DNA from: Ampullaceana balthica
Lineage: Eukaryota; Mollusca; Gastropoda; Lymnaeidae
Assembly (NCBI GenBank): GCA_944989445.1
Contig: CALYLW010000123.1
Location: 1,924,810-1,988,809 of the forward strand
Length of the DNA: 64,000 nucleotides
Direction: 5' to 3'
Positions within the stretch are counted from its first letter, which is position 1. Each line of letters opens with the position of its first letter. The position numbers and the translations under genes were made by a program. This document shows positions 5,452-52,103 of this stretch, in pieces. The notes below the pieces were generated by a model, which had not been told where the DNA came from, ran no database searches, and was given only the letters and a program-made list of their open reading frames with translations.

Positions 5452-5466
5452 GTGAGTAATATACAC

Positions 5467-20516: not shown

Positions 20517-22146
20517 ATGATATTAAACCCACTAATTACAAAAATGAGTTCGAAACAAGAATCGTTAAAAAATTTTCGTGGTAAAAGAAAAATGCCCAGT
20601 GAAGAGAGTGAAGAAGAGCCTTTTACATCTAAAAAGCATACAACTCGTAACAGACAATCTGCACAGATGGAGCTGCTGCCATGACCGGACGACTGTCTGG
20701 TTTTACAGCTCGGATTAAGGAGGTTGCACCTGACTGTGAATCTGCGCATTGTATAATTCACAGGGAAATGTTGGCAAGCCGAAAAATGTCACCAGAATTT
20801 ATAGTGTATTGATTGGTGTCATTAAAGTTATTAACCACATCAAGGCACACGCCCTTAACTCACGTCTGTTTGAGCAGCTTTGTGAGGAGATGGACGCAGA
20901 GCACAGATGCTTCCTTTTTTACACAGAAATAAGATGGTTGTCCAGAGGAAAATCGCTAAACAGAGTATTTGAATTACGAGAGCCATTGCAAAGATTTCTC
21001 TCAGAAATGAAGTCACTGCTTGCAGCATATTTCAGTGACAAGGTATGGGTCGCAAAACTTGCTTACCTGTGTGACATATTCAGCCAGCTCAATGAACTCA
21101 ATCTGTCTCTTCAGGCGAAAATTACAACTATTTTCAAATTGGCGGACAAAGTAGCTGCATTTAAAGCCAAACTGGAGTTTTGGGAACGGCGAGCGAACAA
21201 AGGCATTTTGGATATGTTTAAAAAATTAGAGGAGATTGTAGGCGAGACTGAGCCTGAACACTTTTTGTCACAGATGGTGCACAGTCATCCGTCTTTGCTT
21301 TTAAAAGAGTTTGAGCGCTACTTCCCAACCACAAAAGACCCACGAACTGGTAGGGATTGGATTCATGACCAATCGTCAGCAAATCAGGCGAATCTAGCAT
21401 GACTGTGCAAGAAGAACTGTACCAGCTCGAGATTGCAAATGACGGAGGCCTTAAAACTATGTTCGTGAAACAACTCTTCCAGTCTCCTGGATTAATGTCA
21501 TGTCGGAATATCCTGAGATTTCCACCAAAGCAATTAAATCCATTTTACACGCTCTTATTTAAGTCACAATGTTTGTATGTTGTATCCATCCATCCCTCCT
21601 TGAAATCTTGTAACGTAAAATTAAACCAATTTTGATGGTCCTAGAGATCTCAAAATGTTACCACAGATAGATCTTGGATGACAATGCATTGTATCGAAAT
21701 TTCAGATCGATCGAATGTACCGTAATTAAATTAATCAATTTTTAGTTTATCTCTATTTATCACTATTTAGAATGTATAGTCGTCTGCTAGAGTTGACCTC
21801 CACGGCTCACTGGTTTCACTCTAGCCCTCAATTACCAAATTCACGTGTTTACATCAAGGCCAGGGGAGATCAGCGCGTTTCAGTCTGTAAATGTTTGTAA
21901 ATAAAAGCGTGTCCTTTTTAAAAAAAAGATTTTTTTACATGTTATTACTTATTGCCATTTCAGACATCCTATCTGTGTGAAGCGGGGTTTTCTGCAGTGA
22001 CAGCAACGAAGACAAAGCAACGGAATAAAATGGACATAAGCAGCACACTTCGGGTGTCATTGTCTCCCATTACCCCAAGATGGAACCATCTCGTTGCAGA
22101 GAAACAAGTTAATGGTTCTCAATTATTTAACATTCTAGTAAATTAA
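20517..22146 (+). pseudogene. Degraded hAT transposase (ZBED5/FAM200-like)
   Basis: An acceptor precedes ATG 20517; 55 codons then run to a stop. A second frame continues with AMTGRLSGF and HREMLASRKM, and a third (20749-21402) with TEIRWLSRGKSLNRVFELRE and KLAYLCDIFSQLNELN, all typical of ZBED5-type hAT transposases. The C-terminal dimerisation region resumes at 21950 (SYLCEAGFSA) after a 394-bp insertion. Missing N-terminal BED finger, frameshifts and insertion make it non-functional. No relation to the receptor genes. Confidence 0.85.
21558..21951 (+). repeat. 394-bp non-coding repeat nested in the hAT transposase
   Basis: It interrupts the codons for LHAL and LPFQTSYL of the transposase and is flanked by CTTA on both sides (21554-21557, 21948-21951). 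It starts TTTAAGTCACAATG. Two further copies lie head to tail at 55061-55834. It contains no open frame of note. Confidence 0.82.
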
Positions 22147-22535
22147 AATATTAAATAACTAGCGTATCACCCGTAAAAAATGACGGAAGTTTTCAAAATA
22201 AATACACATCAGATTAAAAAATAACGTAATACAGAACTTTCATTTATTTAATTTATTTTTATTTGATTCATTTTTTATCATTATTGAACAATTTTATGCG
22301 GAACGTTCGAAAAGAGTTATATTTGGTGCAGTAATTTTTGGTGCGCACTATTGAACAAATCAGCATTACATACAAGAAGCATTACATCCATTACGGGAAT
22401 TATGCATGTTGATGAATGATGACGATGTTTAATTCACTTTTTGTGTAAATGTATTTAATTTGAAGGCATGTTTAAGTACAATTAAATTAAAACTATAAAA
22501 TCAAAACAACCTTAAATTGACGCAGTCGCAAACCC

Positions 22536-22593
22536 TACCCCCTCCCACATCTCCCACCAACACATACCCCCTCCCACATCTCCCACCAACACA
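22536..22593 (+). repeat. 29-bp C-rich tandem duplication
   Basis: Two identical units starting TACCCCCTCCCACATCTCCC sit near the 3' end of the hAT element. This is a small local slippage or duplication event. Confidence 0.8.
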
Positions 22594-24257
22594 TACCCCC
22601 CAAGTTAGTTGGCCACGGTAAAATTATCAAATTTTAAGTGGTCCGCGGCGTTAAAAAGGTTGGGGACCATTGCTCTAGCACACAAATTAACATGCTACAT
22701 AAAGATAAATAGAGATAATCTAAAAATTAATTAATTTGATTACAGTATATTTGATAAATCTGAAATTTCAATACATCTATTTTATCATCGACACGAGTCT
22801 GCCTGCAAAACTGCCACTCGCTAGCTCACGAGGAAGTGGGTTAAAAATTGATCCAAAGTTGTTTCGGCATTCAAGCAAGCAAGGCATCAAGCAGACGCCA
22901 CGAGTTAATAGGACTTATCATAATATGCAGAAATATGTAAATAAAACTATACGGGGCTTTTTATGGACGAATTTCATAAAAATTTAATGAAAGATACGAC
23001 TCAAAATGTAAATGTAGGTATATTGAGAAGGAAGTATCTTATCAGCTATTTGTTATTTCTTCGTTAACTTAAGACAGCTTATTTGACTTGAAAAAGTAAA
23101 AACTGTTTCGCAAGTTTACTATGCTATCAATTTGGAGAACATAGTGATTCGATTTTAATTATGCTGTAAAAACATTGTTTCGCTAAAATATAATCTAAAA
23201 ATAGAACATTGAGCTATGAAGTTGTCCTGTTTTAGAAATGACAACCCCTATATAAATGATTTTAAAATATGTGTTTGTAAGATCATTGAACGTATTTGCA
23301 AGATTTGAACTGATGATAAATGGAGATTAAACCTTTGTTTCTTACATCTCTTTTATCTCTCCATAATTGCAACACATTTTAAAAGATTTATTTTGTTTGT
23401 TGGTCAATTTTTATAAAACTATTCCTATTACAGAATAATTAGTTTCAATCAAGATGAAACAACCTCTATCTTGAATACTACTGATTATTGTTTATAAAAT
23501 GTTTGTAATATGGGTGGGTACACGTTGATTTCAGAAGAGAAGAAATTTAAATTTAAAATATTGATTGAACCTATTGGAAAATTAAAACAATTTTTTTCGT
23601 CATTTGCTATTACATAAATGTTTCATTGCCTCGAATATTTTTTTTTAAAACGGCACAATTCAAAAGCAAATCTAAAATTTAACTTTTATAATTTAATGTT
23701 CAATTTCTTTAGAAGATTTTGTGTATTGAAATTAATGTTGTTAAACGATAATCGGAAATCCGATTATACGTTTTGAAAGTGATAATCGGTTTTAAATTTC
23801 TCAAACCGACAATCGATTTAAATACTTTCGGATTAAAAAAAAAGCCGGATTCCGGATTCGCCGGAACCGGAGCTATTATATTAATAAATATTTTATCTCA
23901 AAACTGGTCAGCCGGATTTGGCAGTATATATGAAGTAAATTTCTGCCGGAGCCGGATTTCTAAAAATAGCCGTATTTGCCGGAGCCGAAATCCGGTACAT
24001 CCCTAATTTCTATGAAGTCAGCGGTAAAACGATAATCAGTTTAAAATCGGATTTACATAACCGATACGCGTTTGACAAAAAAAAAGAGAAGAATTAATGA
24101 CGCTAATTGAAATAAAAGAACAAAATTAATTTTAAGGATACTAAAATAATAAAATAATAAAATTAACAAAAAAAATTAAAAAAAATTTATTTTTCAACTA
24201 TATATAATACTCTCTATACATTTCATATTTATAATATCTGTCACATATAATTTTGAC

Positions 24258-24363
24258 GTGACACATGATACATTGATTACCTGGATTAGAGCTCTTATGT
24301 GGCTTTGCGTACTTTTATTTGGTTCCACACTGTGCCTCTCTATTGTTGTTTATTTCTATAAAA
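24258..24363 (+). pseudogene. Copy 2 exon 6 homologue: transmembrane segment without acceptor
   Basis: It encodes TWIRALMWLCVLLF then GSTLCLSIVVYFYK, homologous to the copy 3 membrane exon, and ends in phase 1 at a GTAAGT donor. The 5' boundary is unclear: where copy 3 has acag|AT this copy has acat, and no AG occurs between about 24137 and 24288. The AG at 24288-24289 would be out of frame. The helix and donor are intact. Confidence 0.65.
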
Positions 24364-25019
24364 GTAAGTATGACTTCGTTTACTGTATTCTTTTCTCATT
24401 AAGTCATAGTTTAAAAAAAAATTATATTATTTTACTATTTAAATATGAAATAATAGAATGTTTAAGAATTTGAATTATTTTTAAAAAAATTTTGCACGAA
24501 TATTTTATCAATATTTTTTTTTCTTTTATACAAAAGTCTTCTCTTTTGATCTATGAGCAAAATGCTACACTGTATATTTGTATGTTAATTTTCTGATTTT
24601 TAAAAAATCTATTCATTCGTTCTACACCTTAAACCATTTCAAATGATCTATGATGTTCACTGCTACGTACGTAACGTAATTTGAAAGAAGCATAATACAT
24701 TTGATGAAAATAATTTTGATTTCGTTTAAAATTTGAAATTTTACAAACAAAATTCTTGTAAATTCGTTTCCTATAAATCAAAATTTGATTAACTTTGCAT
24801 TTTTATAGAATTTAGTCAAGACTTTTGTTCATTTTTTATGTACAATTTAATAAAACAAATCTTCTCTTTTTTAATCGCTATTTAATTCATATAATATTTT
24901 ACTATGTGATGCTTAAATAGAATATTCAATGTTATTATGATTAAAAATAAATAAAAATATAAAAACAGAAAAAAATAGAATTAACAATGACTTTATCTTT
25001 AATGTCTCACACGATCTAG

Positions 25020-33315: not shown

Positions 33316-34676
33316 AATGACAATTATTTATCTAAATATGTTTTTAAAGCTTATATTCATCTTTAAGCATTTCACTCACTGTCTTGTTACCTCGTTCACC
33401 CTTTCACTGCTTTTATCTGTCCCTTTTTTAACGCTCTATCTCTTAAGAATTTAAATAAAGACCGATTAGCCGCTACCGATACAATGTATTTATACAAATT
33501 TAATTTTTACCACACGAAACTATAAAGAGTGATCGCATCGCTACAGTCAATTAGACGATATAACTCAAACTCTTGCTGAGCAAGTACAAACGAACATTCA
33601 CTCTGGGAAGCGTAAGATGGCGACCTACAGGACCTAGTTCATTCACAGGTTTGTGTCTAAACTTTCGGTTTCGAATGGTTACGAGACTGATGGATGAGTA
33701 GTGATTAAAGTCTCAACGATTCTAAAGATACACGCTTGGATACCGTACAATAAAGCGGGATAGTTAAATAAAAATGTATGTAAATAATTCAGCAAGGAAA
33801 TATATGTACATTGAAACGTGAACAATAAACACAATATAATAAATATGTTGTCAACAAGCCCCCTTTAGCTTAAAAAAAATTAAAACAAACAAAAAACAAA
33901 GATGAAATACAAATCTATGATTTAAAATTGAAGTGTACATAAAGGAGAAATGTATTATTTCTTTCTGATTTCAGATGCATATCATGACATTTTAAATAGA
34001 TTTGCAATAAATAGTATGAAATTAAGGAAACCATTTAACAAAAATACACCATGAAACAATAAAGCCTTGTTTTAAACAGTGATAACATCTTGGGGACTAC
34101 TGCAGCTTAGCTGGTAAATGACTTCATTTTGATTTATGATAATTTCAAAGCGTGAATAACTCAAAGGAAGTGAAAGAAATCTAAGTACTTACGATTTAGT
34201 AATGTGTAGAAAAAGTGTAAGCTTTATATTTAATTTCCTCTAAAACTGGATGTATATTTATATTCTCTGTTTTCTTTCATGGAATTTAACACAAAGTTTT
34301 TGTAACTTTAAGCATCTACCAATTGCACGATGCACCTTTCTTCTGCATTTTTTAGGACATGATATAATAAATTGTGTATTGCTGCTTAAAACAGACCAAT
34401 ATTATTTTTTTAAAAGATTAGGTAGAAGTAAATTTCTATTTAATAATAATAAGAGAAATTCTTTATTCAAATGCTAGCAATGCTATGGTGGACAAAATGT
34501 CTAAGCTTATGCTGAAAAATGCATATGCAATAAAGGCAATATAAACATTATTCATTCATTTAGTAATACACGAAGACTGAATAAATTATGTTGAAATATT
34601 TTATATAAAAATAAATCATTTAATTGTAATTTAATTTTTTCAACTTTTACTAAATTGGTCATTTAACTTTTTTCAG

Positions 34677-34756
34677 AAACTTCATTATGGTTTACTTTGT
34701 GCAAACTTTACAGAGTTTGATTATTTTGTTATGTGCTGCTTATATATTTACACAAA
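34677..34756 (+). CDS. Copy 3 exon 1: signal peptide
   Basis: The ATG is at 34687 and encodes 23 residues with a hydrophobic core (LIILLCAAYIF), ending in phase 1 at a GTAAGT donor. A tttttcag acceptor ends at 34676, ten bases before the ATG, so there is probably an upstream non-coding exon that I could not locate. The same arrangement occurs in copy 2. The start was chosen because it is the only ATG in frame with the downstream Ig exon and it begins the hydrophobic leader. Confidence 0.8.
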
Positions 34757-37700
34757 GTAAGTGTTCAATTATAATTAACTTAACATTGCATACATTGTTA
34801 AGTGTTTTTTTTTCAAGTTGATTCTGAATGTCTGATTAAAAATTGAACTATGTTTATACAAAGAAATAATTAAAACTAATGTCAATATACATTTTCATCA
34901 GTTTTAGCAGGTTAATGTTTTAAAAAAAATAAAATAAAAACTAATTTGATTTAAAATGGAATTTACAAAAAAAATTAAATCAATAAAAGTCTGTTTGAGA
35001 TAAATACAAACAAAAACATTGGATATATTAATTTACAATTGCTAAAAATTAATAAGAACCATAGCATCGGCGACGGAATTTTTAGAAGTATGATTGCATG
35101 TAAGATCGTCCTGTATGCGTTTTTAAAACATATATAGATCTAATGATAGATATGAAAATCAAGTCTAAAAAAATTAACAAATGAAGCACAGATAAAGTAC
35201 AGATCTAATTTAAAATTACGGAAATTACCCACAACTCTTCCTTAAAAAATACAATTGTAATATGTTTCATTTAATGTATGTAAACATTTTTTTTTAAAAA
35301 TCATTGTTCATTTTTTACCAAAATACCAATGGAAATAATATTAAAATTGTATACAAATTTATTATGATATTATTTTTATTATTAAATTTCTTAAAGTAAT
35401 AACAGAGACGAATATGTTTATTTAAAAATTATTTAAACTATTGGCTTGAATCAGCCGCGTAGCGTGGGTATGTGCCGCCCGGGCAGAACCAATGTTGCCC
35501 GCCATAACCCCCCGCCCCAACTTGGAAAAAATATGTTGATTCTATATAAGTCAATATAATTTTATTGAAAGGTAATAATAAAGATAGTCTACAATTTTAT
35601 ATTAAAAATAAATACATGTTTAAAAGGTTGCTGTTTTTGAAGTTTTATACTTTTTCTCCTGTCACAATAATTGATAAATCAATGTCGTCATATATACCAT
35701 TCTGAACATCCATTATAGCCATAGATTATTCAATCTTGGTGTATTCATCATTAGTCGTAATTAATTTTTCATCAAATTAATTTTAATAAGCTTATCTCGC
35801 AGCTTGCATTATTGATAACTGTTGTAAGCAATTGTTGAATTAATTATATTTAATTCGGTAGGATAAAATCCAAACTAATTATCTTAACAAACTAGAATAA
35901 ATCAAGTGGGCTGGAATGATTTAATTCATTTGTTTTTGTTAGGTAAAATATACCTTTTATTTTTTCACAATGCTGTGAGATATTATACTTTGAATTTGAT
36001 AATCTAATTTTAAGTCAAAATGTAACAGTCCCGTAGATTAACAGGCGTACAAATTATGTAACTATCAAAACCTCAGATGAATTTTCTACAGTAACATCAT
36101 CTTATGATGAACACAAATTTATTCTCAAATGTTTTCCTACATAAAATATTCGCTTGGATTGTCAAAAATGTTTTTGCTCGTTCTTTAACCGGAAATTTCC
36201 ATCAAAATTTTAAGGTCTCCACAAAAGATCTTAGCAAATGTCAAAACATCTCGTTTCGTATTCCATTAGTTTCTCTATGAGCAACCTCTGAAAAGCATTA
36301 TATTAGCACTAAGTGTTTATAAAAAAATAGGCATCATTGACCTCATAAATTAGATGTTTCCAAATGTCAGAAAACAAACAACTAGAAAATAAATATATTT
36401 ATGACCATTAAAGTTCCTGAGTCTGTTTTTGTGTTCGGCCATTTTTCTGCCTCTGTCTGTTTTTCTTTAATCTAGCTTTCAAAAAAAACTTAAAATGACT
36501 CCATGGTACATTCTGTATTTTGTACACTAAAATCTTTTTTATCCCTTGCCTGCAGCAGCAATTAGATTTTTCAAATGTGTTAGGGCATGAAAAAGAAAGC
36601 GTACCAACGTTATTGTGTACTAAGATAGAGTTTCCTTTCAATTGGAGCAGCATGTAATAAATCAGGTTAAAGGAACTGTTCAAGCGAAATTAAACATTGA
36701 GATTTATGTATTTCTTCTTTGTTAAACACGTGTATATTTTCGAGCTATAAAGAAGTAATTACACACGATGAGCCTATGCAGTCAATTATTTTATGACCAA
36801 AATTTGTTTTAAATCATTTCATAAATGTCATAAGCAGATCCATTTTCTGTTTTAATGAAATCTTTGAAATAGTCTACTTCTAATTTCTGCTTTTTTCAAT
36901 CTTTACATATCACACAATTGGACTTGTTTGATTCTTATGTGAAATATAATTTGGAGACCCATCGAACACAATGGAATATTTGGAATGTCGTACCTAAAAG
37001 ATTATTGTTGGCAACATTTTGTTGTTCTTTTTTAATCGTCTATTCGTTTCATCTGATTTCTGATTCCTTCATTTAATAAAACTTGGTTATTTTTAGGACT
37101 TGTTCATGAGAGGCTACTTTAGTATTTTTGTTATGCTTTTTTCAAATCAATTATGTTAGGAATTTTGATAATTGTTTTTTTAATGCAAATTATGCTGTAG
37201 GAGATAAGACATGTAAGTCCGCGACAATTTTTCCAATTAGTTTACGCACATTAAAGACATTAATCAGTACCCCTATCATTTCTATTTTGGTGTGGTGTGT
37301 CTAATTCAGAGAAGTTAACTTTAATATGTTTGAGCCTCTATGAATCTCGCTGCACTTATAGAACCCACAAATTTACATTTGTACATACAGGAATTTTTGT
37401 ATATAAATAAAGTTCATTCATGTTATTAACCTTTTATTGGTTGTGGAATACAAGGAATACATCAATTTTCGCTTCAACAGGATGTTCATTTTCCTATACC
37501 TTTTCACCCCCATGTTTTTTGGTTCACTAACATTAATTTTAGAAGACTTAAGAATAATTACGGCGTTTTAAATTTTAGCATTAGAAACGCTCACGTGTTT
37601 TAAGAGGGTTATTTTATTCTATTATTAAATTCCTTTATATTAACTTCGAAATCTTGTCTGTCGTCATCTCTTCGTAAGTCCTTACGTCGGGCGGAAAAAG

Positions 37701-40700
37701 AAAAGTAAAAAAATGGCCCACATTCCGTGATGCCATCGAGCTGAAATTTGGCATACAGACTTGTGTCACCTAACAATGCATCGTATCAAAATTTCAGATC
37801 GATCGAACGTACCGTAATTAAATTAATGCATTTATAGTTTGTCTATACAAAACTATATGTAGCAGTCGCTATTGTTTACATTTTTTGGGTCACTAGACTT
37901 CATGCCAGCCATAGGTGACCACATCTCGTGTTTTAACCAGGTGGAATTCACTCAGCTTCAGGCTGTAAATGTTTGTCGCGATAGAAAATAATCAATACTT
38001 TAATTTCTGTCTCCTATATAAGGTATTTATAGTCAAAAACTTTGTTTTTACGTTTTTTTAAATTTTCTTGTTACCTTTGCTTTATTTAGCTTTATCAATT
38101 TTTAGAGGCTAATTAACAACTAGGAATTAGCCACCTGAACAAAGTAACGCCCAGAGAACTTGGTTGGCTCATGTTTGAAATTGATATGGTATAGTAATGT
38201 TTGCTTCTACAACAGGAGCGGCTGTCAAATTTTAAGAATAAATTAAGTTTTAGAAGATAATTTTCACTTACGCTGCTTAAAACTCTTTGTATTACAGTTC
38301 ATTAGCATTAGTTTCAGAAGAATTTATATTCACTATAGAGTTTAAAGTTTTGGTCACAATTCTTTTAGGATAGTTCCTTAATTTATTTTATTAGCAAGCA
38401 ACATAGAGACGAGGGATCTGCCGCCGCTAACAAAGTGCCTACCGGGGCATTCCCCTCTTGCCACCATCGCTACGCCTCTAAGTTTAAAAACATACAACAA
38501 AAGCATGCTCTTTATTATTATTGTTTTTTTCATGTTATAATTAAATTGTTTTTTTTAAATTGAATCAGAACTTGCATTTACTACCATTCTATTAAGATTT
38601 TATTATTTAAATAAAAGAGACAAATACTTAACTTTCTTTTTTTCAGAAGAATTACAGATTGATAGTTTTGAGTTAGAAGTCTATAATAGAAGCAACTCTG
38701 TTTTGATCGAAAAGTTCGATCTGATTAAAGTGAATGGACTCACTTTAGTACCTAACACAAAATTTCATTTTAAATGTTCAGCAAGTGGAGTTTCATATGT
38801 TGAAGTTAAGTCAAAAAACAACTCTACAAGAAAGGAATCTAAAAATAATTTAACCTCCACATCAGTAGACTACACAATTGAAACAGTTGATTGTAGTCAT
38901 GCATCCGATTACACATGTCAAGCAGGAAGCATGGCAGGATTAAAGCAAATTACTGCAAGAGTTATTATCACATGTTAGTATACTAATTACTCTTTAAACA
39001 TATAATTAAATAATTTCAGTGTGTACTTCTATAAATCTCTAGGACTGATCCAACATTTTGTTTCATTTAAATGAAAATTTGAAACTTCTATGTTGTTTCA
39101 GAATTCAAAACGATTGTATTTGTTTGTATTGGTGAATTTTAAATAAAATGCATTTCTTTAAAATAAACAGATACAATATTCATTACTATATGACAAATTC
39201 ATTTTTATTTTTTTTAAAAATCGTTTATCTTACATTTTAACACAGCAATTTAAAGAAAAGTACTCATCAAGCTGTTAGACAATTACTAAATATTCCTTCA
39301 ATACATATAAAGTATATATTAATCTAGTTTCTTCTATCCCTAGGTCCAGTGTCTGCGGCAAAATTTAACTCAAATAAGAAGAATAATTACGTCTCCGTTT
39401 CTAATAACACAAATGATTTGATGGTAATATGTGAAGATACTGATCTCCCCTATTCCTTAACTATATATAATAAAAGAAATAGAAGCCATCGCCTTAACTA
39501 CATTGAAAACACTAACAGAGTTACCTACACAATGTCTAGTGTTAAATGTGACGACATGGGAACTTATATTTGTGTTGTGAACAAGTCAAAACCTCAACAA
39601 CATGGACGTGACGCTCAAGATCTTTACAATGTTACGGAAATAACACTGGATGTCTCTGTTAATAATTGTAAGTAATTATTTACAACGGATAAAGCATTAT
39701 GCGTTTTGAAATTTAACACAATGTCATTGTTTCTTTTATTTTATTTTACTACTTTTAAAATTATGTCTGCAATTAAAAGTCAATACTTGATAGGTTTAAG
39801 TATAAGCGACAATACTCTCTTGTATCTATTCCATAAATATCTCTCAAAGCATCTTAAAAAAGAAAACTTAATAAATATTATTTTTTAATTTGATTTATTT
39901 ATGTATCTTTTACCATGAAATCAGGATAAATGCGTAATTGCAAAGATACCGGTAGTAACTACTTCAAACAACGTAATTTATATATTTCTATTATTAGGAT
40001 GTTACAAGATGATTGTTTATGTGATATTAGTGTATGTATAGTATAAAGTTAACGCAGCTTAGAAGCAACAGACTAATAACCAGGTTAACAAATGTATGGT
40101 TACAACCCGGGTTGGGGGAGGGATATTTTGTAATTGGTGTTCATTCTAAAGGTACATTTTCAAATTAAAGAGATTTTAATTTATCAATATTGTTCGATGT
40201 ATGATTTCTCTATTAGTACATGAATATATTTATTTCAATATACATTTAAATTAATTTTTTTATATTCATATAGGGTTATGTAGTTTCAATTTGGTGAACG
40301 TGATTTTTTAAATTAGAATCTTTTTCAATCTTTATATATTTTTTAATGAAATATTCATTGCAAACAGGTCCGCCACGACTGTGTCATGAAACTATAGAAA
40401 ACAATACAGTAACAAGGGAATATAACACACACATATCTTTAACTATCTGTGTTGAAGTTCCAATAAGTACTCGAGTCTTTGGGGTGTCTTACTATGGGGA
40501 ATGGGTCACTAATGGAACATGTAAGGAAGGAATATGTCTGGACTGTAAAAAACATGATGGGTCTCCATTTAAACATAACTTGAACATAACATGTTCAAAT
40601 ATAGACTCAAGAAAGCGCAATGATATGATGATCTACATTGGATCAGGATACAACTATAAAAACAACTACATTAATTACACGATACGCTTCAAACATGATG

Positions 40701-41912
40701 GTGAGTATGCTTCTTGCACTTTATTTACCATGAAGGAAACTATTTTTAAAAGTCATAACTATATTTTAATGATATTTATACTAAATAAATTTGTATCCAA
40801 ATATATATATATATACTAGGCAACTACTTCTACTGCTCGAAAAAGCATTCAGTTAAAAGCAAATCAATTTGCAGATGATACTCAGCTTTACAATCGCACT
40901 GATCCATCTGATATTGACTTCACTGTCAAATTGGTGCAAGAGGGCATTGCTGAGGTAAAGTCTTGGATGACTTTCAGCAAGCTCAAACTGAATGATGAAA
41001 AGACAGAAGCACTCTTATTCTGCAACAATAAATCACGCAGTACTTTGACTCTTCCGAATTCCATTTAGGTGGATAGTTCTGTTATACTGTTCAAAACATC
41101 GACTAGGAATCTTGGCTACATTATTTCTGACATTATGTCTACACACAACTTCATCAATCACATCTGTCGATCTGTCTACACTGCCATTCGTCAGATCAGC
41201 TCAATCCGTCATTACTTAACAGTTATTGCCACACAAACTCTAGTCTGTGCTCTTGTAGTACCTCGTATGGATTAAGGCAATTCTCTTCTGTCAGGTGCGC
41301 CAAAACAATGCATTGAAAAACTACAGAAAGTTCAAAATTCAGCTGCCAAATTTTTTCTAAAGGCAAAAAAAAACAAAAAAAAACATGACCATGTTACTCC
41401 GCTACTATACTCACTTCATTGGCTACCCATACAAGCCCAAAGTGATTGCAAACAGGTCGTTCTCTGTCACAACTTCTTTTCTGACTAATGCCCTTCCTAT
41501 CTTACCGAGCTTCTGTCGGTCTACTCACCAAGTCGTCAGCTACGCTCTTCTGCAGACACGCGCATTCGTGTGTTCCTAAAGCACAAACTAAAACTTTAGG
41601 CGAAATGTGATTCTCTTTTTGTTCAGCCAAACAATGGAATTCTCTACCATTACACATCTGGAGTATTTCATCTACCAAGTCCTTCAAGACTGCACTTAAG
41701 ATGCATCTTTTCAAAATTTATTTTCAAAATTAAAGAAACAACATTTTTTTTAAATGATTAACGTAGCTTATGTGTAACGTACTGTCATTTATGTGGTTAT
41801 TATGATAAGAATGTTTATTTAATTATTTTATGTATGTTATTATCTCTATGTAAAGCACTGTGAGCCCGGCTCCTTGCTGGGATACAGCGCTATAAAAGTT
41901 ATCAATTTATTA

Positions 41913-41998
<86 letters not shown>

Positions 41999-43257
41999 TA
42001 GCAGACCCGTCATGCGTTGCAACGATCAAAGTAAAAAGGAATAAATTTAAAGAAACCAATGAGTGGTATGTTTAAAAACAATTCTGAAGAAACCTTCGTG
42101 AAGTGTGAAAAAAGAATCCAAGTTTCATAGCATACGGATAAATAAATTAATAATTAAATAGCATACAAAAGAAGAAACGATATTAAGGGCCCCGGCCCCA
42201 AAATGAGTGATATTATAGTTTTTTATTGCCATTGTACTCAAGCTATATTCATCAATATCGTGTAAAATTAAATAGGGAATACAATTATTAAAGTTCAGTA
42301 AAAAGACTTTTTCGAAGGAATGGAAATTAAGAGTTCAGTGCCCTATAGTAATATAGGCTCTTAAGTTTTTATATTCTAAGTTTTGTCAAAATCCAGTTAT
42401 TTTCTCAATATCTAACTCTTAAACTACTTTTTATATACCTAAAATAGGGGGGAAAATAACATTAAGGGGCCCCTGGCCCATTCGGTGCAAAAGGTCAATT
42501 TCAAAAACCTGTTCATTTTAGTTCATTTTTATTGTGGCTAAATTTCTCAAGCTCTTTAAAAAGTAAATATGAAAAATATCTTAAACATATACGAAAAAAG
42601 ATATTTGGGGCCCCGGCCCCGAAGATATTGGCATTAGAAGTTCAGTATTTATAGTATTTTAATATAGGCTACCAAGTTTTTGTATGCAAAGTTTGGTGAA
42701 GATCTATTCATTTACTAAGTAGCTAACGTAGAAACTAATTTTTATATAGCTCATATAAGATAAAAACGACATTAAGGGCCCCAGGGCCCATTCTGGGGAA
42801 GATATAAAGTTCAAAACACCTGTTCATTTCAATTAGTATAATAATTGATACATGTGTCATAATTTGTCAAGATTGTTAATGACTGAATGGTGAATAAAAT
42901 CTTAAACGTTTAAAAAATGTGAATTTTTGGGCCCCCAGCCCCAAATGAATGAATATTAGCAATTTAGTGCCCAATAGTATTTTAATATTGGCTATCAAGT
43001 TGTCATATACAAATTTTGGTTAAGATCCATTAATTTACACAGTAGCTAAAGCTTAAACTAATTTTTATATAGCTCGCATAAGAAAAACATGACAATATGG
43101 GCCCCCGGCGCCCCATGAGTGTTAAATTTTAAAAAAAAGTGACTGTTACCCTCCCGGGAGCATACACAACAGTCTTGAAAAGTTTCATGACGATCGGGTG
43201 AATGTTTTAGACAGCTATAAAGGACATTCATACACACACAAATATATTTTATTTATA

Positions 43258-43316
<59 letters not shown>

Positions 43317-46300
43317 TAATAATTAAAAAGTTTACAAAAGAAGAAACTATATTAAGGGCCCCGGCCTCAAAATGAGTGATACATTATATTTTTTGTTGCT
43401 ATTGTACTCAAGCTATATTTCTCAATATCGTGTAAAATTAAATGGGTAATGCAATTAATAACGTTCAGTTAAAAAGACAATTGGGCCCCGATCTCCGAGG
43501 GAATAAACATTAGGAGTTAAGTGCCCTATAGTAATGTAATATAGGCTCTAAAGTTTTTATATACTAAGTTTGGTCAAAATCCAGTGATTTTCTCATTATT
43601 TAACACTTAAACTAATTTTTTTATTTAGCCGATATAGGAAAAATAAACGAAATTAAGGGGCCCCCGGGCCTATGCGGTGCAAGATGTCAATTTCAAAAAC
43701 CTTATCATTTTAATTTAGTTTCATCATGGATATATATTTCTAAAAATCGTTACAACATGAATGGGGAAAATATCTTAAACATATACGAAAAAAGATATTT
43801 GGGGCCCCCGGCCCCGAAGAAATTGATATTAGAAAATATGTGCCCTTAAGTATTTTAATATGGGATACCAAGTTTTTGAAAATAAAGTTTGGTTAAGATC
43901 CATTCATTCACTTAGTACCTAACGCATAAATTAAATTTTAAATAGCTTATATAAGCAAAAAACGACACTAGGGGCCACAGGGCCCATTATTTGCTAGACA
44001 TAAATTTCAAAACACCTGTTCGTTTCAAAATGGATAATAATGAATGCATTTATCATTATTTTTCAAGATCTTTAATAAATATATGGGAAATAAATTCTTA
44101 AAAGTTGAAGAAAAATGGCATTTTGGGCCCCAGGCCCGAAGGAATGGTCATTAGGAGTTTATTGCGCTATAGTATTTTAGTATTGGCTGTAAAGTTTTTA
44201 TATACAAAGTTTAGTTAAGATTTATTCATTTACTCAGTAGCTAACGCATAAACTAATTTTTATATATCTTATATAAGCTAAAAAAGACATTAAGGGCCCC
44301 TTACATGTGTCATTATTTGTCAAGATTGTTAATGACTGAATGGTGAATAAAATCTTAAACGTTTAAGAAATGTAAATTTTTGGGCCCACAGCCCCAAAGG
44401 AATGAATATTAGCAGTTTAGTGCCCTATAGTATTTTAATATTGGCTTTCAAATTGTCATATACAAAGTTTGGATAAGATCCAACAATTTACACAGTAGCT
44501 AGCGCTTAAACTAATTTGTATATAGCTCATGTAAACAACAAATGACATTATGGGCCCCTGGTGCCCCAAGAGTGTTAAATTTAGAAAAAGAAGTTGCCAG
44601 TTACCATCCCAGGTGGGTACTCAACAGTCTCCAAAAATTTCACGACGATCGGATGAATAGTTTAGTCAGCTATAAAGGAAATGCACACACACATACACAC
44701 ACACACACACAGACATACTTTGATTTATATATAATAGATATAAGAAAAAAAGACATTAAGGGCCCCTGGGCCCATTTGGTAATAGCTGTAAATTTTAAAA
44801 ACCTTTTCATTTAATTAAGTTTCCTCATAGATATATTCCTCAAGCTCGTGAAAAATTGAAAAACTCAGTGGGGTAAAATACATTAAACATATCCGAGGAG
44901 AAGACATTGGGGGCCCCCAGCCCTGAAGGAATGGACATTTGAAGTTATTTGCCCTATAGTATTTTAATATGGGCTACCAAGTTTGTGTATTCAAATTTTG
45001 GTTTAGATCCATTCATTTAGTCAGTAGCTAACGCATAAACTAATTTTTATATATCTTATATAAGCAAAAAAACATTAAGGGCCCCGGGGCCCATTCAGTG
45101 CAAGATATAAAGTTCAAAACCCCTGTTCATTTCAATTTGTATAATAATGGATACATGTGTCATTATTTGTCAAGATTGTTAATGACTGAATGGTGAATAA
45201 AATCTTAAACGTTTAAGAAATGTGAATTTTTGGGCCGCCAGCCCCAAAGGAATGACTATTTGCAGTTAAGTGCCCTATAGTATTTTAATATTTGCTATCA
45301 AGTTGTCATATACAAAGTTTGGTTAAGAGCCAACAATTTACACAGTAGCTAGCGCTTAAACTAATTTTTATAAGGCTCATATAAGCAAAAAATGACATTA
45401 TGGGCCCCTGGTGCCCCATGAGTGTTAAATTTAGAAAACAAAGTTGCCAGTTACCATCCCAGGTAGGTACTTAACAGTCTCCAAAAATTTCATGACGATC
45501 CGATGAATGGTTTAGGCAGCTATAAAGGACATGCACTCACACACACACACACACACATAAATACTTTGATTTATATATATATATATATATATATATGGAG
45601 AGATGAATTAACTCTCTTCATGTAGGTTATGTCTGTGCATGATTATTTTCTTTAAATATATTTTTAAATATTTAAGAAATATGTCACTTTCTCGGATTAT
45701 TATACTAAAAAATGTGTGTAATATAAACTCTCTTTTGTCTGACCTACGAGGCCCCTTTGGGCCCCGATTTCATAAGCCCCGCCTACCTTAATTTTCTCTT
45801 ATTATCCTTGATAATTCGTTACCCTTATCAATAGTGGGCCCCGCTCAATCTGTATCGCATTCTAGACAGCATAGGGTCACGCAATTGCTTAGGCGTGCCC
45901 TAATTAAAACTTAGTAAACTAATAAAGGAAAAAAAACCATAAAGATTATAGATATTACAGAATGAAAATATCGGTACGTTCTTGTAGAGAATTTAACGAA
46001 AACCATATTAATGTTAATGAATTTGGGCAATTTAACGGTCTGTTATGTTGTGATAAAATGATTTTTTCAATATAGCACAAATAAAACAAAATATATTATT
46101 GGTTATATTACCTCCTTAAACATTCTTATAACATTTATAAGAAATACATTTCTTTTACTGGAGAAAAAATAATTTTTAATGATTTTTTAAAGCTAAATGA
46201 CATAAAATAAATAGTGTCGATTTTTTCCACATCTGATAATATGTTATTTAGGATATGCTAAAATATAAACGCTAAATTAGTTTTGTTATGTTTCTATAAT

Positions 46301-49300
46301 ACTATTTTTATTTCTTTTACAACTATTTTATTTTAAATAAATGTCTTCACTACATAAATAGTGTCAGTTTTCTCAAATTAAATAATTATAATTATTTTTT
46401 TTAAATCTAAGGCTCTAGACATTTTTAAAACTTTAACATGCATAAAATATAAACACAAATTAATATTTCTAATGGACAATATTTAAGTGCTTTGATCATG
46501 TAAATCACCATTGCGTTTGTAGTGTAAAGGCGGGGTCTAACAGGGAATATATCGTATTTCGTACTCGCTTTGAAATTATAGCAAGTATTTAAACTATTTT
46601 CTTTTGTAGTTGGGGTCAATAATTTATTATATGTAGTACCTTGTTTTTATTCGTATATAATCATTTTCAACACATTTTATTGTCCTAATAATATGCATTC
46701 TTAAAATGAAATATTAGAGCCTGCAAGTCCACCGAATACTTCACCATCAAGTTCTACTCCAATCCGTGCAGTCAACGATACTACCACGTATGGTATGTAA
46801 GGTTAACATTGATGAAAGATTTCTACAAACACTTAGTTGAAAATATGTTTTTTAGCAGCGTTTTTTAAAAAGATTTAATTTTAGGCAATAACGAAAAATT
46901 TTTTAAAAAAGGGATTGAAAGGTATATTTTAAAAGAAAAGTTCGTACTATCAGTTAATTTACTTGTACATTATTAATTGAAAATTTATATTATTGAAGTT
47001 GTGTTTCTTAATTCGTCTTTTACATTCCTTATATGCGAGACATTTTAAATGAGATTTAAAAAAAACAACTATTCTCAACATGCTGATATAACTATGTATG
47101 TATATATTTTTATAACGATAAAATAAGTTTCATTTTTAATAAAAAACTAATAATATTTTACAGATGAAATTCGTGACGTAGATACAAAATCGAATACTTG
47201 GAATACAGTTCTGGTTTTTCTCTGCGTGCTTCTACTGTGTGTAACAATGAGCCTTGCAGTAGTTGTCCATTTTTACAGAAGTAATTATATAAATATTTTT
47301 AATCATAAAAAATATTAAGTTATTTTTTATATTTTAAATCATTATTACTTTAATTTTAAAAAATGAACACAGAAAAGTCACAAAATCGCTTTCATTCTTT
47401 TTTTTAGATTCTCAAAATTTTTCTTTAGGGTTTTTGTGAAAATATAATTTTAATCTAATTAAATATCTTCACATGTATATTCAGTTGCCATCCAATTACA
47501 TGTATGTTAATCATGTTAATTACACACGCACACAAATATCTATCAATTATTTTTCTAATAACTTTGACTAATCACATCTTCCAAAGTATATATATATATA
47601 ATTAATGGAATTATATTTTGGCAATGAATTTTGATAATCCATTCAAACATATTGTTGCATAAAATTTATTTTAGGTAAATGGCACAAATTCCGTCGTCGT
47701 CCATCCAGGTAAAGCCAAATTATTTCTTAGATTTTATACTACTTTCAAACATAGTGGTGTTTCATGTCATTAGCCTTTCTCACAAAATGCGTCTGTTTTT
47801 ATAATTGATATTTGTAAAGTATCCTCAATTATGTGACATCTATATTTGTATTCCATAAAAAGATTTTGGAATATGTAATTTTCTGAATATGGCTTGGTTC
47901 CAGTAAAGACGATATGTTCAATTAATATGTTAACTTATCACATTAACAAAATTAAATACGTACATTTTATGTAGACTGATCGGTGATTCATTTAAATCTT
48001 AAAGCTGTTTTTACCTAACAGGATTTCCCAGAGGCTGAAATTTCTATCACAAAAGCGTCATTCTCAGAGAATCGCAGAAAACACTACGCCTAAAGACTAC
48101 AAAACAGGTGATAGAATAATAAGTGGTATGTTGGTTTTTATTTTAATTTAATGTTTTGTTACCAAACGTGATTGAATAGGCAATGTAATCGACTACAATA
48201 ATATATTTTATTAATTCAACAAACTACATCCTTCCCAATTAAAACAAAATGTTTCGACCTATAGTTATCGATGAACTAGTCATCCAGTCTGTAAACTAGA
48301 GGGATTTTAAACTTTACATCATTTCCCATTTAGCTTTCGGTACTTAGCTCATCCAAGAAAATATATTGCAAAATCTGGATACTGGTTTCATTGACGGATC
48401 TAAATCAAACATAGAGCGAAAAATCATCGAAATCAATATTAAACTGTTGTATGGAATGAAAATCTTGACATTAAATTATTGAAGAGCGGGGGCAAAAGAT
48501 GTTATACATAATTGCAACAATGATTAGTTCTAAACGAAGGAACTATATTTTGGGGGGAAAGGGGGTCATATCGGGAATAGAGATTCAAACAATAACGGGC
48601 AAAAAACTCATTAATAAACGAGATCATACTGGCCTATGAGATCCCATCAAAATATAGAATCAATTTTGAGGAAAGGAATTCCATACACCATTAAATCACA
48701 TTAGGCCGCGGAATCATATTAGGGAAATCTACATCACAGAAAGGCTCGACATTGTGAAACATGATCATACTTTGAGTTATTCGGGGGAAGAAGATAAGTC
48801 GCTGAATGTGATCCCATTTTGCAACTGGGTAGTTCTGAGTTATGTTAAACAATCGAAGTACGGATAATATCAGGGAAAGGAATTCAACCAATGACTGGAT
48901 GCCTTTTTGCAACACGTTCATAATGGTGTACGTGATCTCCTCAAAGCATGAGAAGATAAAGAGGAAAGAAATTCAAAAATAAAGGGTCCCATTTTGAAAA
49001 GGGATCATACTGGTGTACGTGATCTCCTCAAAGCATGGGAAAATAAAGAGGAAAGAAATTCAAATAAAGTGTCCCATTTTGCAACGTGATTATACCGAGT
49101 TATCTTATGCAATCGAAGTAATGCATCTTATCCGGGAAACGGATTTGACTAAGAATGGGATCTTATTAGGAAAAAATGTACTTAATCAAAGTGTGGTATC
49201 GTATCTGGAGAAGGAATATGACCGCAAACAGGATCCCATTTTGAAATTGGATTATACTGAGTGTAATTCAGAATAGGATTCACTATAAATGCCTGGTGGC

Positions 49301-51980
49301 CCGGATATTTGCTAGTATAAATATATATATATATATATATAGCGTGCTTTTTAAAAAAAAATAAGTGCCGGTACTCAGTGATGGATTGCCTAACTTTTAA
49401 CTACCAGTTCGCACCTCAATGCAAGCTAAATCGCAACTGCAAAGATACTATATGTCTAAAACAATTTTATTTTATAATTAACCAATAATAATAAACTTTA
49501 AAATACAAGAAAATTAATAATTTTTTCCCACATTGAAAAACGGTGCCGGTACGCCGTACCGGTGCGTACCGTCACAAAAATAACTGTATATATATATATA
49601 TATATATCGCTATACGGGAGCGAGACATGAACATCGTAAAGTATACATCCCATGAGCGCAAGCTTAATATCTTCCAATTGATGTGCCGGCGTCGCATCAT
49701 TTGCATTAAATGGCCGGACAAAGTGTCAAATAGTGAGGTCTTGATGCGTGCCAATATCATGTTCTCAATCCTTAGTGAAAGACGCCTAAGATGGCTAGGA
49801 CATGTAAAAATAATGAGCCCGGGTCGTATCCCCAAGGACCTCCTATAAGAAGAACTGGCATCAGGAAAGAGGAATACATGTTTCCCCCGTCTCCGATTTA
49901 AAGATGTCTGCCAGAGGGACATGAAACCAGCCGGAATAAACACAAGTGACTTGGAATGTAAAGCAGAAGACCGATCTACGTTGCGCACAGTGTCAAAGAG
50001 TGCGTTGTAGTAGCCGTGGAGCAAAAGATGGAGGAGGCTACAGACAGAAGAGCTAGGAGAAAGGCCAAAACATTGGGGAGAACATACATTGTGTGAAAAA
50101 GCTGTGTAAAAGACTGTCACTCAAGGATAGAACTGCACAAACGCACGCAGAAATGCAACCAAACCCAACGGTGATGCATCATCGTCTTTCGAGACGGAAG
50201 GAAATCGATTAACATATATATAATTTAGAAATATAAATTACTTAAATTACAGTACAGTAGCTCTACGCCCTTAATTTCTCATACGTTTTTTTTGTTTTTT
50301 TGTTTTGTTTGTTTGTTTGTTGTTGGTGATTGAATCATTTGTTTCGTTTATCATATGTTCATGCGCAATGAGTCTTCGGGAGAGATATAAAGCAGCGTAC
50401 TTTAAAAAGCGTCAATAATTAAACTTATTATTATTAATACTTTTTGTTAAAATTGTGACTGTTTTTCTAATAAAACACTTATATTTTGGTAAAGTTTTGA
50501 AGGTTTAATTAATCAAAAGTCTTGAAAAGCATTTAATGTTTATTCAAGATAAAATAAGTAAATATAAAGTAGAAGTTGTAAAGAAAAAAAATAGATGTTA
50601 TAAAACTAGTGTCCCAAAACCATATGATGCTTTTCTGAACATCAGACAAAATGTGATTCATGATTTAATTTTTATTTCACATCTTAATTTCTGAAGCATA
50701 AGTAATTTTTAATTATTACACATTTCCAAAAAAAAATGTATAATGATAGGTGAAAAATACAAAATTTCAGATTTTATTTAACAATTGCAATTTTATAAAT
50801 TTATTTAACCAAACAAAAAATCATATTTATGATCCTTTTATAAATAATGCGTTATTTTTTATTGCTTGATTTACATTTATTAAAAATATTTAAAGACACG
50901 TACAATTTTGAAAGCAGAATATTTAAATAGAACTAAATTTTAAATTTTCTTTAGTTTTCACAAACAAAAAATATGTTTAATTATCTACTTACCATATGCA
51001 AACTATTTCGATGTAAATTTTAAAACAGATGGAGTCTATGAGAACACAAATACACCGAATCAATACGTAAATAACGGTGTCAAGACTTTCTACGTGGAAC
51101 CAGAGCCACCAAACAGCATATACAACAATGTCTTCCCAGTTGTAAGTGAGACATTTTGAAATGATAAAACTAATGTAACTTAGCTTTTAAGATAGAAGGT
51201 TGATACATACAAGAACTTTGCCTGTAATACGTGTAGTGAAAATCACATAAAAGAATAACGTTAAAAGGTATAGACAGACAACTATGGAGTCCGTGTGGTT
51301 TTAACAGCAATATCTCCTCAAGCCATTCTGTGTGAGGTTTTAGGTAAAATATTATAAATACTAGAAAACCATAATTTCGTGAATCTATGAAATGGTTTAA
51401 GCAGCTCCCTGCTATTTATAATGCAGCGGTAGCAATATGTGCAAGACTGAAATCATCGTATTGAAAATCAATAAAAAGTTATAAAATAACATTAATAATT
51501 TATAGATAAAAACACAATACTTTGAATATGTGCGCGTTCCATTTTAAGTAATTGTAATAACAAAGGGCCACATATTCATTACTGGGTAAATAAAACATGT
51601 TTTTTTTTCCATCAATTTTGATTTTAATGTACACACATACTCATCGCAAACACAAATGTATTGAATGGTGTAGAAAGTCAGTTTACTAGATCCTGACACT
51701 TCTCACATTTAAAAAAAAATAAAATTATCCTTTGACTTTAACCGACGTATTTCAGGATTTTGGCCGCTATATGAACGAAGATGGTCTCGTCTACGTAACA
51801 GTTCACAACAGTGAGGCTGCACCTCTACGTGCTGATGCCAACTCTCGAAGTCAAAGATGCAAGGTGTCCTACACGGAGATCGACCCCAACAAGAAGACAA
51901 AGGTGCAGAGCACGTCTGAAGATTCAACGGAAGGAGGAGAACAAGATATTATCTACCATAATATTAGCGGCGTATTTTAG
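34687..51980 (+). CDS. Ig-superfamily transmembrane receptor with four ITIM-like motifs (copy 3, complete, 10 exons)
   Basis: Ten exons join in one frame: 34687-34756, 38647-38973, 39344-39667, 40368-40700, 46718-46792, 47164-47280, 47675-47708, 48022-48125, 51029-51141, 51756-51980. The coding length is 1,722 bases, or 573 residues plus TAG. Every junction has GT/AG and matching phase. Layout: signal peptide 1-23; Ig-like domains about 24-132 and 133-240; cysteine-rich third domain 241-351; stem 352-376; transmembrane helix about 391-411; basic juxtamembrane stretch and long tail 412-573. The tail holds four [SIVL]xYxx[IVL] motifs at Y493, Y512, Y538 and Y566, plus YxN at Y465?-type (YEN), Y474 and Y504. 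By analogy with vertebrate ITIM receptors it would sit at the plasma membrane and recruit SH2 phosphatases after tyrosine phosphorylation; that role is inferred. Many N-glycosylation sequons lie in the ectodomain. It is a paralogue of copies 1 and 2. The ligand is unknown. Confidence 0.85.
35452..38480. mobile_element. TIR element, hAT-like, in intron 1 of copy 3
   Basis: The two ends carry inverted CAGCCGCGTAGCG and CGCTACGCCTCTA. The interior is AT-rich with no intact transposase; only short frames are seen. A target duplication is not clear, so the superfamily is tentative. The R-type repeat at 37,660-38,060 lies inside it. Confidence 0.5.
37655..38062 (+). repeat. Interspersed repeat R2, copy A
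   Basis: It matches 59,235-59,665 along its length: a cgggcggaaaaag block, aaatttggca, the atttcagatcgatcgaacg core, a gaccacatctcgtgtttt block and an actttgtttttac end. It is non-coding. Confidence 0.75.
38647..38973 (+). CDS. Copy 3 exon 2: first Ig-like domain
   Basis: The exon has a phase 1-1 structure between tttcag and a gttagt donor. It shows the B-strand cysteine (FKC) and an F-strand YxC (DYTCQA) spaced as in an Ig fold. The usual C-strand Trp is not evident, so this is a divergent domain. Sequons are present (NRS, NST, NLT). It is closely similar to copy 2 at 15911-16243 and to the 3' half relic in copy 1. The codon spanning the 3' junction is Cys (T|GT). Confidence 0.85.
39344..39667 (+). 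CDS. Copy 3 exon 3: second Ig-like domain
   Basis: The acceptor is ccctag and the donor is gtaagt, phase 1-1. It encodes a B-strand Cys (VIC) and a classic F-strand DxGxYxC motif (DDMGTYICV), the best Ig signature in the gene. It aligns closely with 16612-16934 in copy 2 and 5132-5451 in copy 1. Here the frame is open throughout, unlike both relatives. Both boundary codons are split Cys codons. Confidence 0.87.
40368..40700 (+). CDS. Copy 3 exon 4: third, cysteine-rich extracellular domain
   Basis: The 111-codon exon (acceptor acag, donor gtgagt, phase 1-1) encodes a domain with several cysteines: the split junction Cys, LCH, ICVE, GTCKE, ICLDC and ITC. The conserved core includes a VFGVSY stretch and a YIGSGY stretch. 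It has Ig-like length and phase but lacks a clear DxGxYxC, so it may be a divergent Ig domain or another small beta domain. The exon in copy 2 at 17849-18181 has exactly the same length (333 bp) and is highly similar, which argues for constraint until recently. Confidence 0.8.
40835..41905 (+). pseudogene. LINE (CR1-type) 3' fragment in intron 4 of copy 3
   Basis: It reads ANQFADDTQLYNRTDPSD, then SKLKLNDEKTEALLF and NLGYIISDIMSTHNFIN in several frames, and HWLPIQAQ near 41,420. The 3' end carries the tgtaaagcactgtgagccc and gcgctataaa motif common in CR1/L2-like elements. It is broken by stops. Confidence 0.8.
41999..45570. repeat. GGGCCC-punctuated tandem block in intron 4 of copy 3
   Basis: About twenty GC-rich nodes of the gggccccggcccc type recur every 130-180 bases within otherwise AT-rich sequence. 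Between them recur tagtattttaatatnggct, aagtttggttaagatccatt and gtagctaacgcataaactaa blocks. Larger modules end in acgatcgg and acagctataaaggac followed by CA and AT repeats near 43,245, 44,700 and 45,550. No coding frame survives. Confidence 0.8.
46718..46792 (+). CDS. Copy 3 exon 5: Pro/Ser/Thr stem
   Basis: This 75-bp phase 1-1 exon encodes a short stalk rich in Pro, Ser and Thr (EPASPPNTSPSSSTP and onward) between the ectodomain and the membrane exon, probably O-glycosylated. The acceptor is tattag and the donor is gtatgt. Related 75-bp sequences are found at 19127-19201 (copy 2) and 6155-6229 (copy 1), but the stem sequence there is much less mucin-like. Confidence 0.75.
47164..47280 (+). 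CDS. Copy 3 exon 6: transmembrane segment
   Basis: The acceptor is tttacag and the exon is phase 1-1. It encodes a short acidic juxtamembrane linker, then about 21 hydrophobic residues (VLVFLCVLLLCVTMSLAVVV) followed by HFYR, a typical type I stop-transfer. There is no charged residue inside the helix, so no obvious pairing with an ITAM adaptor. The homologous exon in copy 2 ends at 24363. Confidence 0.85.
47675..47708 (+). CDS. Copy 3 exon 7: basic juxtamembrane micro-exon
   Basis: This 34-bp exon enters in phase 1 and leaves in phase 2, encoding SKWHKFRRRPS. The acceptor is ttttag and the donor is gtaaag. It continues the stop-transfer signal with a polybasic stretch suited to membrane contact. 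It is too short to be found without frame joining; phase agreement with exons 6 and 8 is the main support. Confidence 0.72.
48022..48125 (+). CDS. Copy 3 exon 8: proximal cytoplasmic tail
   Basis: The acceptor is cctaacag and the donor is gtatgt, entering in phase 2 and leaving in phase 1. It encodes a basic, Ser/Gln-rich segment (residues 427-461) with one tyrosine (DYKTG) that matches no SH2 consensus I recognise. It links the membrane exon to the signalling exons. Confidence 0.72.
48480..49315 (+). repeat. Degenerate tandem array in intron 8 of copy 3
   Basis: Units share gatcccattttgcaac and gtgatcatactg motifs with ggaaaggaattcaa spacers. Two neighbouring units starting at 48924 and 49011 are nearly identical with a period of 87 bases. 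It is followed by AT repeats. Confidence 0.72.
49610..50205 (+). pseudogene. LINE 3' fragment in intron 8 of copy 3
   Basis: The first frame encodes ERRLRWLGHVKIMSPGRIP and then, out of frame, LASGKRNTCF and RLRFKDVCQRDMK. The last hundred bases (gtgatgcatcatcgtctttcg) recur inverted at 53,438-53,545. Confidence 0.8.
51029..51141 (+). CDS. Copy 3 exon 9: cytoplasmic tail with YxN sites and first ITIM
   Basis: The acceptor is aaacag (phase 1 in) and the donor is gtaagt (phase 0 out). It encodes residues 462-499 with four tyrosines: Y465 in VYENT and Y474 in QYVNN (both pYxN, a Grb2-SH2 type), Y483 in FYVEP, and Y493 in SIYNNV, which fits the ITIM consensus. The tyrosine density is unusual for a 38-residue segment and supports a signalling role. 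Confidence 0.8.
51756..51980 (+). CDS. Copy 3 exon 10: terminal tail with three ITIMs
   Basis: The acceptor is tttcag, phase 0, and the exon runs to TAG at 51978-51980. It encodes residues 500-573 with YMN at Y504 (Grb2 type) and three ITIM matches: LVYVTV, VSYTEI and IIYHNI. The spacing between successive ITIM tyrosines, counting the one in exon 9, is 19, 26 and 28 residues, within the range of known tandem ITIM receptors that engage SHP phosphatases. GC content is clearly above the surrounding DNA. Confidence 0.85.
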   Translation, partial: DFGRYMNEDGLVYVTVHNSEAAPLRADANSRSQRCKVSYTEIDPNKKTKVQSTSEDSTEGGEQDIIYHNISGVF

Positions 51981-52097: not shown

Positions 52098-52103
52098 AAT
52101 AAA
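52098..52103 (+). terminator. Candidate polyadenylation signal of copy 3
   Basis: A canonical AATAAA lies about 120 bases after the stop codon of copy 3. In AT-rich DNA such hexamers are common, so the position is what supports it. Confidence 0.45.

Follow-up and report, generated by a model that had tools for sequence, protein, structure and literature searches.

The window, the whole stretch of 64,000 nucleotides of Ampullaceana balthica DNA that was analysed (C123:1924810-1988809, in a source genome of 1.097 Gb and 3363 contigs), contains one intact gene, called here copy C, and two decayed duplicates, copies A and B, which lie upstream of it on the same strand. Copy C (34687-51980) consists of ten exons that join into 573 residues and a stop codon; all nine introns have GT/AG borders, and the phases, mostly 1-1, agree at every junction. 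An earlier note on this DNA had claimed ten exons with agreeing phases, GT/AG borders and no internal stop, and this held when the joined exons were rechecked. The features of the window are listed below; gene E is a second gene on another contig, C1027, and P0001 is a protein of Lymnaea stagnalis.

about 4721..6228, + strand: copy A, a decayed duplicate with a fragment of exon 2, exon 3 with in-frame stops, and exon 5
14447..24364, + strand: copy B, a duplicate with exons 1-6, a one-base deletion in exon 3 and no AG before the transmembrane exon
34668..34676, + strand: acceptor-like TTTTTTCAG, where an intron of the 5' UTR probably ends
34687..34756, + strand: coding exon 1, with the ATG and the signal peptide (kept in gene E)
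38647..38973, + strand: exon 2, Ig domain 1, likely cysteine pair Cys67/Cys114 (exon join, Pfam)
39344..39667, + strand: exon 3, Ig domain 2, likely cysteine pair Cys162/Cys209 (exon join, Pfam)
40368..40700, + strand: exon 4, third domain, a predicted Ig-like beta sandwich
46718..46792, + strand: exon 5, stalk rich in Ser/Thr/Pro (exon join, gene E)
47164..47280, + strand: exon 6, transmembrane segment (hydropathy; P0001 starts within this exon)
47675..47708, + strand: exon 7, basic juxtamembrane stretch (exon join, gene E)
48022..48125, + strand: exon 8, membrane-proximal tail (exon join, gene E)
51029..51141, + strand: exon 9, tail with Y465, Y474, Y483 and ITIM 1, SIYNNV (Y493)
51756..51980, + strand: exon 10, with the stop codon and ITIMs 2-4 (Y512, Y538, Y566); the family has this exon in common
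52098..52103, + strand: AATAAA, a candidate polyadenylation signal 118 bases past the stop

The acceptor-like TTTTTTCAG ends 10 bases upstream of the ATG, and copies B and E preserve its TTTCAG; the transcript therefore probably has a 5' non-coding exon further upstream, ahead of coding exon 1. The AATAAA is weak evidence, since the DNA is AT-rich. Within intron 4, positions 40829-41900 read like a remnant of a LINE reverse transcriptase, and positions 42000-45600 are an array of diverged repeat units rich in GGGGCCCC. Searches for Rfam families and for tRNAs returned no matches. Judged by its sequence, copy C is very probably a real gene.

Protein architecture and tail motifs

The product of copy C is composed, in order, of a signal peptide, two Ig domains supported by Pfam, a third predicted Ig-like domain, a stalk, a transmembrane segment and a tail of 157 residues. 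Hydropathy reaches its maximum (3.05) at residues 392-411, and the basic stretch KWHKFRRRPSR comes next. With an N-terminal hydrophobic segment, one strong transmembrane segment and basic residues on the inside, hydropathy predicts a single-pass type I topology, in agreement with the type I membrane protein claimed previously. The Ig ectodomain was borne out by the profile search of the joined protein that had been proposed as a check, in which the Pfam family I-set scored 29.9 bits against a cut-off of 23.7. Taken alone, exon 2 (Ig_3, 1.2e-4) and exon 3 (I-set, 1.3e-3) stay below the cut-off, while their versions in copy B exceed it (I-set, 3e-6, and 'ig', 8.1e-6, respectively). The domain of exon 4 had no match in Pfam and is predicted to be an Ig-like beta sandwich; an AF2 model of exon 3 had a mean pLDDT of only 44 and was set aside. 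This Ig-type ectodomain carries 14 glycosylation sequons. No fibrinogen or C-type lectin domain is found among the eight Pfam families that match the joined protein at E up to 10. FREP and VIgL proteins have such a domain after their Ig domains, whereas copy C has the transmembrane segment and the tail at this place.

Four ITIMs, scored as [SIVL]xYxx[IVL], occur in the tail: SIYNNV (Y493), LVYVTV (Y512), VSYTEI (Y538) and IIYHNI (Y566). When the tail is shuffled, the mean is 0.34 ITIMs, and four or more appear in 30 of 200,000 shuffles, or in 39 of 200,000 if the tyrosines are kept in place. The four matches reported in the earlier note are thus confirmed in the tail, in excess of chance as judged by shuffling. 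The ectodomain has a single match among its 20 tyrosines, and permitting T at position -2 adds one match, which lies in the stalk and not in the tail. Four tail tyrosines have N at position +2 (Y465, YENT; Y493, YNNV; Y504, YMNE; Y566, YHNI). Nor does the tail of copy C contain two YxxI/L motifs spaced as in an ITAM.

The tail in a second gene, in Lymnaea and across the genome

A second gene of the same structure, gene E, is located on C1027 (57173-75286). It has ten exons with phases as in copy C and GT/AG borders throughout, encodes 575 residues and keeps all four ITIMs. Between C and E, identity is 76% in exons 2-4, with a dN/dS of 0.41 (0.29-0.60), and 93% in the tail, with a dN/dS of 0.18 (0.08-0.37), although the low divergence of the tail is partly regional and therefore overstates the selection on it. 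Outside the exons, divergence is 0.068 at the start of intron 9 and 0.108 in the 3' flank, against 0.218-0.471 in introns 2, 6 and 7. Since the 3' non-exon sequence is also less diverged, exchange between C and E explains part of the tail identity. Divergence between positions 49596-53500 of the window and C1027:70435-76776 falls, introns and flank included, as it does after gene conversion. Overall, C and E are 72-88% alike, unevenly; for copy B and a further copy on C1027, copy D, the likeness is 91-92% in the longest two pieces and 75-86% outside the gene. Contig C1027 may represent either a divergent haplotype or a different part of the cluster.

Beyond this genome, a search with the tail alone of 5.77 billion proteins, limited by word matches and length, gave 13 candidates, of which one, P0001 of Lymnaea stagnalis (192 residues), is 68% identical across the whole tail (E 1.5e-58). 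P0001 begins in the transmembrane exon and includes the whole tail, without an ectodomain; ITIMs 2-4 are strictly kept, ITIM 1 reads NIYNNV, and all four YxN tyrosines are kept, as they are in gene E. No other evidence speaks as strongly for exons 6-10 being a single coding unit, or for a host that is a gastropod related to Lymnaea stagnalis yet distinct from it. The whole protein, searched against 5.8 billion proteins, gave 7958 candidates and none at E 0.001, and the transmembrane-tail region gave 557 full-length candidates and none at E 10; both searches missed P0001 because it was too short to become a candidate. No oyster protein was returned by the whole-protein, tail-alone or transmembrane-tail search. 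On the tail-alone search, within its limits, the tail leans towards being gastropod-specific.

Exons 9-10 were also compared with the source genome itself, which gave 14 matches: two in copy C, two on C1027 and, less strongly (E 0.004 to 5.8), ten at other places, four on C971, two on C190 and one each on C133, C2332, C1161 and C1223. The ten places have in common a Tyr followed by GL(I/V/L)Y(V/I/L) and then by xYxx(I/L)D; at the second tyrosine, residue -2 is V or I in nine of them and T in one (C971d). A profile of C, E and Lymnaea recovers all ten with E between 1.8e-8 and 3.8e-5, followed by a segment at 2.8, and in the reverse direction three C971 tails combined in a profile hit the window exon at 2.1e-11, these E values not being independent because the regions were chosen by the same similarity. 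With a C971 tail as the second query (at 88.5 kb), nine of the 11 other places came back with E up to 0.02; new were C3305 (8.3e-7) and, marginally at E about 1, two places on C133. Many further rows match only the repetitive end of this query. Independent support for the tail family comes from its conserved splice site: an acceptor AG stands at the identical codon boundary in seven of the ten relatives, in two more (C190a and C1223) it lies three codons further upstream without a change of phase, and C133 has neither, while AG makes up 4.7% of the dinucleotides of the window. Twelve terminal tails (C, E, Lymnaea and nine relatives, with C1161 omitted as near-identical to C2332) contain 27 ITIMs against 2.6 expected, a number reached in none of 5000 shuffles, although these tails are mutually related and therefore are not twelve independent tests. 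At least two ITIMs are present in ten of the twelve.

The ectodomains of the relatives are less clear. None of ten ectodomain exons exceeded a Pfam cut-off; five gave weak Ig-type matches (best E: Ig_SibA 0.0023, Ig_2 0.0031, I-set 0.013, MtxA_IG-like 0.15 and I-set 0.16, the last ranked behind non-Ig families), two matched non-Ig families only, and three had no match. Profiles of the three domains of the window reached, at best, E 0.25 on exons of the relatives. Plausible transmembrane segments were found, by hydropathy and by eye, in the regions of five of nine relatives. A recurring exon-sized domain of the form Cys-x(about 20)-Cys, without the canonical second Ig cysteine, is present in regions of ITIM-tail genes (C190:698900-701600, C190:598129, C190:605857 and C133:820882). 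Ig ectodomains are likely on the relatives, to judge by these matches. The weak Ig-like exons, the transmembrane segments and the other type of domain on C190 and C133 suggest that the tail is a conserved module while the ectodomains vary, and a receptor family with fast-evolving ectodomains and a shared tail is probably present.

Possible function and the copies without the ITIM exon

The source genome encodes the expected effector, an SHP-2-like phosphatase. On the minus strand of C9 (3715257-3703710), SH2 matches are followed in order by tyrosine-phosphatase matches within 11.6 kb; the exons, read individually, correspond to an N-terminal SH2 domain in two exons, a second SH2 domain and three phosphatase pieces. 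For one of the SH2 exons, PTPN11/SHP-2 is the best match among solved structures (4.3e-37; PTPN6, 1.6e-27).

The most likely reading, with a probability of about 0.68, is that copy C is an intact gene of an inhibitory type I receptor of the Ig superfamily, belonging to a tandem-ITIM exon family and signalling through an SHP-2-like phosphatase. The gene model, the architecture, the excess of motifs, the conserved tail, gene E and the SHP-2-like gene are observed; inhibitory signalling in immune cells is suggested by the motifs, and expression of the gene, its cell type and ligand, the phosphorylation of the tail, the recruitment of a phosphatase and the resulting inhibition are inferred. The Ig-like domains would bind a ligand on the surface of a haemocyte or a similar cell, and a Src-type kinase would phosphorylate tail tyrosines 493, 512, 538 and 566. 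The phosphotyrosines, 19, 26 and 28 residues apart, would engage in pairs both SH2 domains of the SHP-2-like phosphatase, which, once recruited, would damp activating signals nearby.

The tail might instead be a general SH2 docking platform, of Grb2-type YxN or PECAM/CEACAM-like character, in a cell-adhesion or activating receptor that is not mainly inhibitory. The kept YxN tyrosines (Y465, Y493, Y504 and Y566) would fit such a role, as would the Ig-type ectodomain with its glycosylation sequons, and a YxN occurs at least once in six of the nine relatives compared. However, YxN is absent in the other three, whereas at least one ITIM is present in the terminal exon of all nine, and the most widely shared positions are those of two ITIM tyrosines, GLxY and xYxx[IL]D. 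This role is rather unlikely.

The duplicates without the ITIM exon raise another possibility. In copy B, a deletion shifts the frame of exon 3, where an AG 14 bases in would restore it (weakly plausible), and the transmembrane exon is preceded by CACAT, against CACAG in copy D (C1027:31220-36700), which has this AG and in which exons 2, 3 and 4 are open with splice sites. Copies B and D and a third, B-like copy (C1027:45528-50783), which has an in-frame stop in its transmembrane exon, share a transmembrane exon that differs from the one in C and E. Their residue two positions ahead of the hydrophobic core is basic (Arg, Arg and Lys, respectively), while C, E and Lymnaea carry a Thr there. Searched with the tail profile, the sequence after copy B shows no ITIM exon, and the C1027 stretch examined (from 30001 on) shows only that of gene E. 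In vertebrate paired receptors, the activating partners have a basic transmembrane residue that couples to ITAM adaptors. Copies B and D could by analogy be present or former activating or decoy partners in a system of paired receptors, as their common transmembrane exon, its basic residue, the preserved exons of copy D and the missing ITIM exon would suggest. The basic residue is a lead only, because it lies at the edge of the membrane; with 23 residues from there to the next Lys, it does not have to be embedded there at all. The loss of frame and acceptor in copy B and the stop in the third copy also speak against pairing, and a candidate tail exon for B and D (25022-25193) is no more conserved than the surrounding alignment, with 11 differences in 172 sites. 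Pairing in this form is improbable.

Homology between C and B reaches about 1.4 kb upstream of the ATG. Their divergence is 0.155-0.199 in exons 2-4 against 0.326-0.328 in intron 2 and the upstream region, and their dN/dS is 0.47 over 320 codons (bootstrap 0.33-0.67); for C and A, it is 0.81 in exon 3 only. The decayed tandem copies upstream of an intact gene have the appearance of birth-and-death evolution.

That the model is a wrong join, with ITIM exons from another gene or with ectodomain and tail in alternative transcripts, is very improbable: the parts are indeed separated by repeat-containing introns of 6.0 and 2.9 kb, and P0001 lacks an ectodomain, but the phases agree at all junctions, and the order, phases and sites are repeated on C1027.

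Returning to the inhibitory receptor as the preferred reading, a broader proposal can be made tentatively, namely that a gastropod multigene system similar to KIR/LILR exists, with diverse, fast-evolving Ig-like ectodomains, one old and constrained tandem-ITIM exon, and, as activating or decoy partners, duplicates that lack this exon and have a conserved basic residue at the edge of their transmembrane segment. It is possible, with the odds against it; if true, a paired, repertoire-type complex of inhibitory receptors would have arisen here independently.

Relation to known receptors

ITIM receptors restrain vertebrate leukocytes. Among them, KIR, LILRB, Siglec, CEACAM1 and PECAM-1 are type I proteins with an Ig ectodomain, a single transmembrane segment and at least two ITIMs some 20-30 residues apart, and genes of vertebrate tandem-ITIM Ig receptors occur in tandem copies with fast-evolving ectodomains. 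Copy C shares this design, although kinship of the tail was found only in Lymnaea, and the ectodomain is generically Ig. The combination of an ITIM exon shared across the family and copies without it is the interesting part.

The earlier note had pointed to a tandem-ITIM Ig receptor in a probable mollusc. This stands, strengthened by the intact model, gene E, the 68% identity of the Lymnaea tail and the SHP-2-like gene, but it is not the first case: the kind is already known from oyster (Crassostrea gigas), since titles cited in PMC11999971 call IgIT and CgIgIT2 inhibitory of haemocyte responses. Going by those titles, these proteins are, like copy C, molluscan membrane receptors of the Ig superfamily. 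PMC11999971 gives CgIgIT2 five Ig domains and an ITAM, at odds with the cited title, whereas copy C has two Ig domains, a third predicted Ig-like one and four ITIMs, the two being compared by description. In PMC5877582, blocking of oyster CgSiglec-1, an Ig-domain molecule, raised apoptosis and phagocytosis; it has two I-set domains, and the passage on it mentions no ITIM, whereas copy C has four. For amphioxus, PMC8211107 describes BbLcLRR, which inhibits signalling via ITIM or ITIM-like tyrosines phosphorylated by Lck and bound SHIP1 more than SHP1/2; its ectodomain is LRR, and that of copy C is Ig.

The molluscan ITIM cases met in the literature consulted are a few oyster proteins. No title among the literature matches listed concerns a gastropod ITIM Ig receptor, and the term 'ITIM' is absent from the main text of a Lymnaea transcriptome paper (PMC7919325); the gastropod tail family was not met among the matches listed, the kind itself being known. 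The family-wide ITIM exon, its Lymnaea counterpart and the SHP-2-like gene offer a handle on repertoire-type inhibitory immune receptors in snails, which are hosts of trematodes, and on whether the ITIM receptor design arose once or several times.

Elsewhere in the source genome, sixteen near-identical Ig matches follow one another in steps of 1369-1375 bases at C51:106221-127081, with more Ig matches between them, and have the appearance of a recent tandem array of Ig exons.
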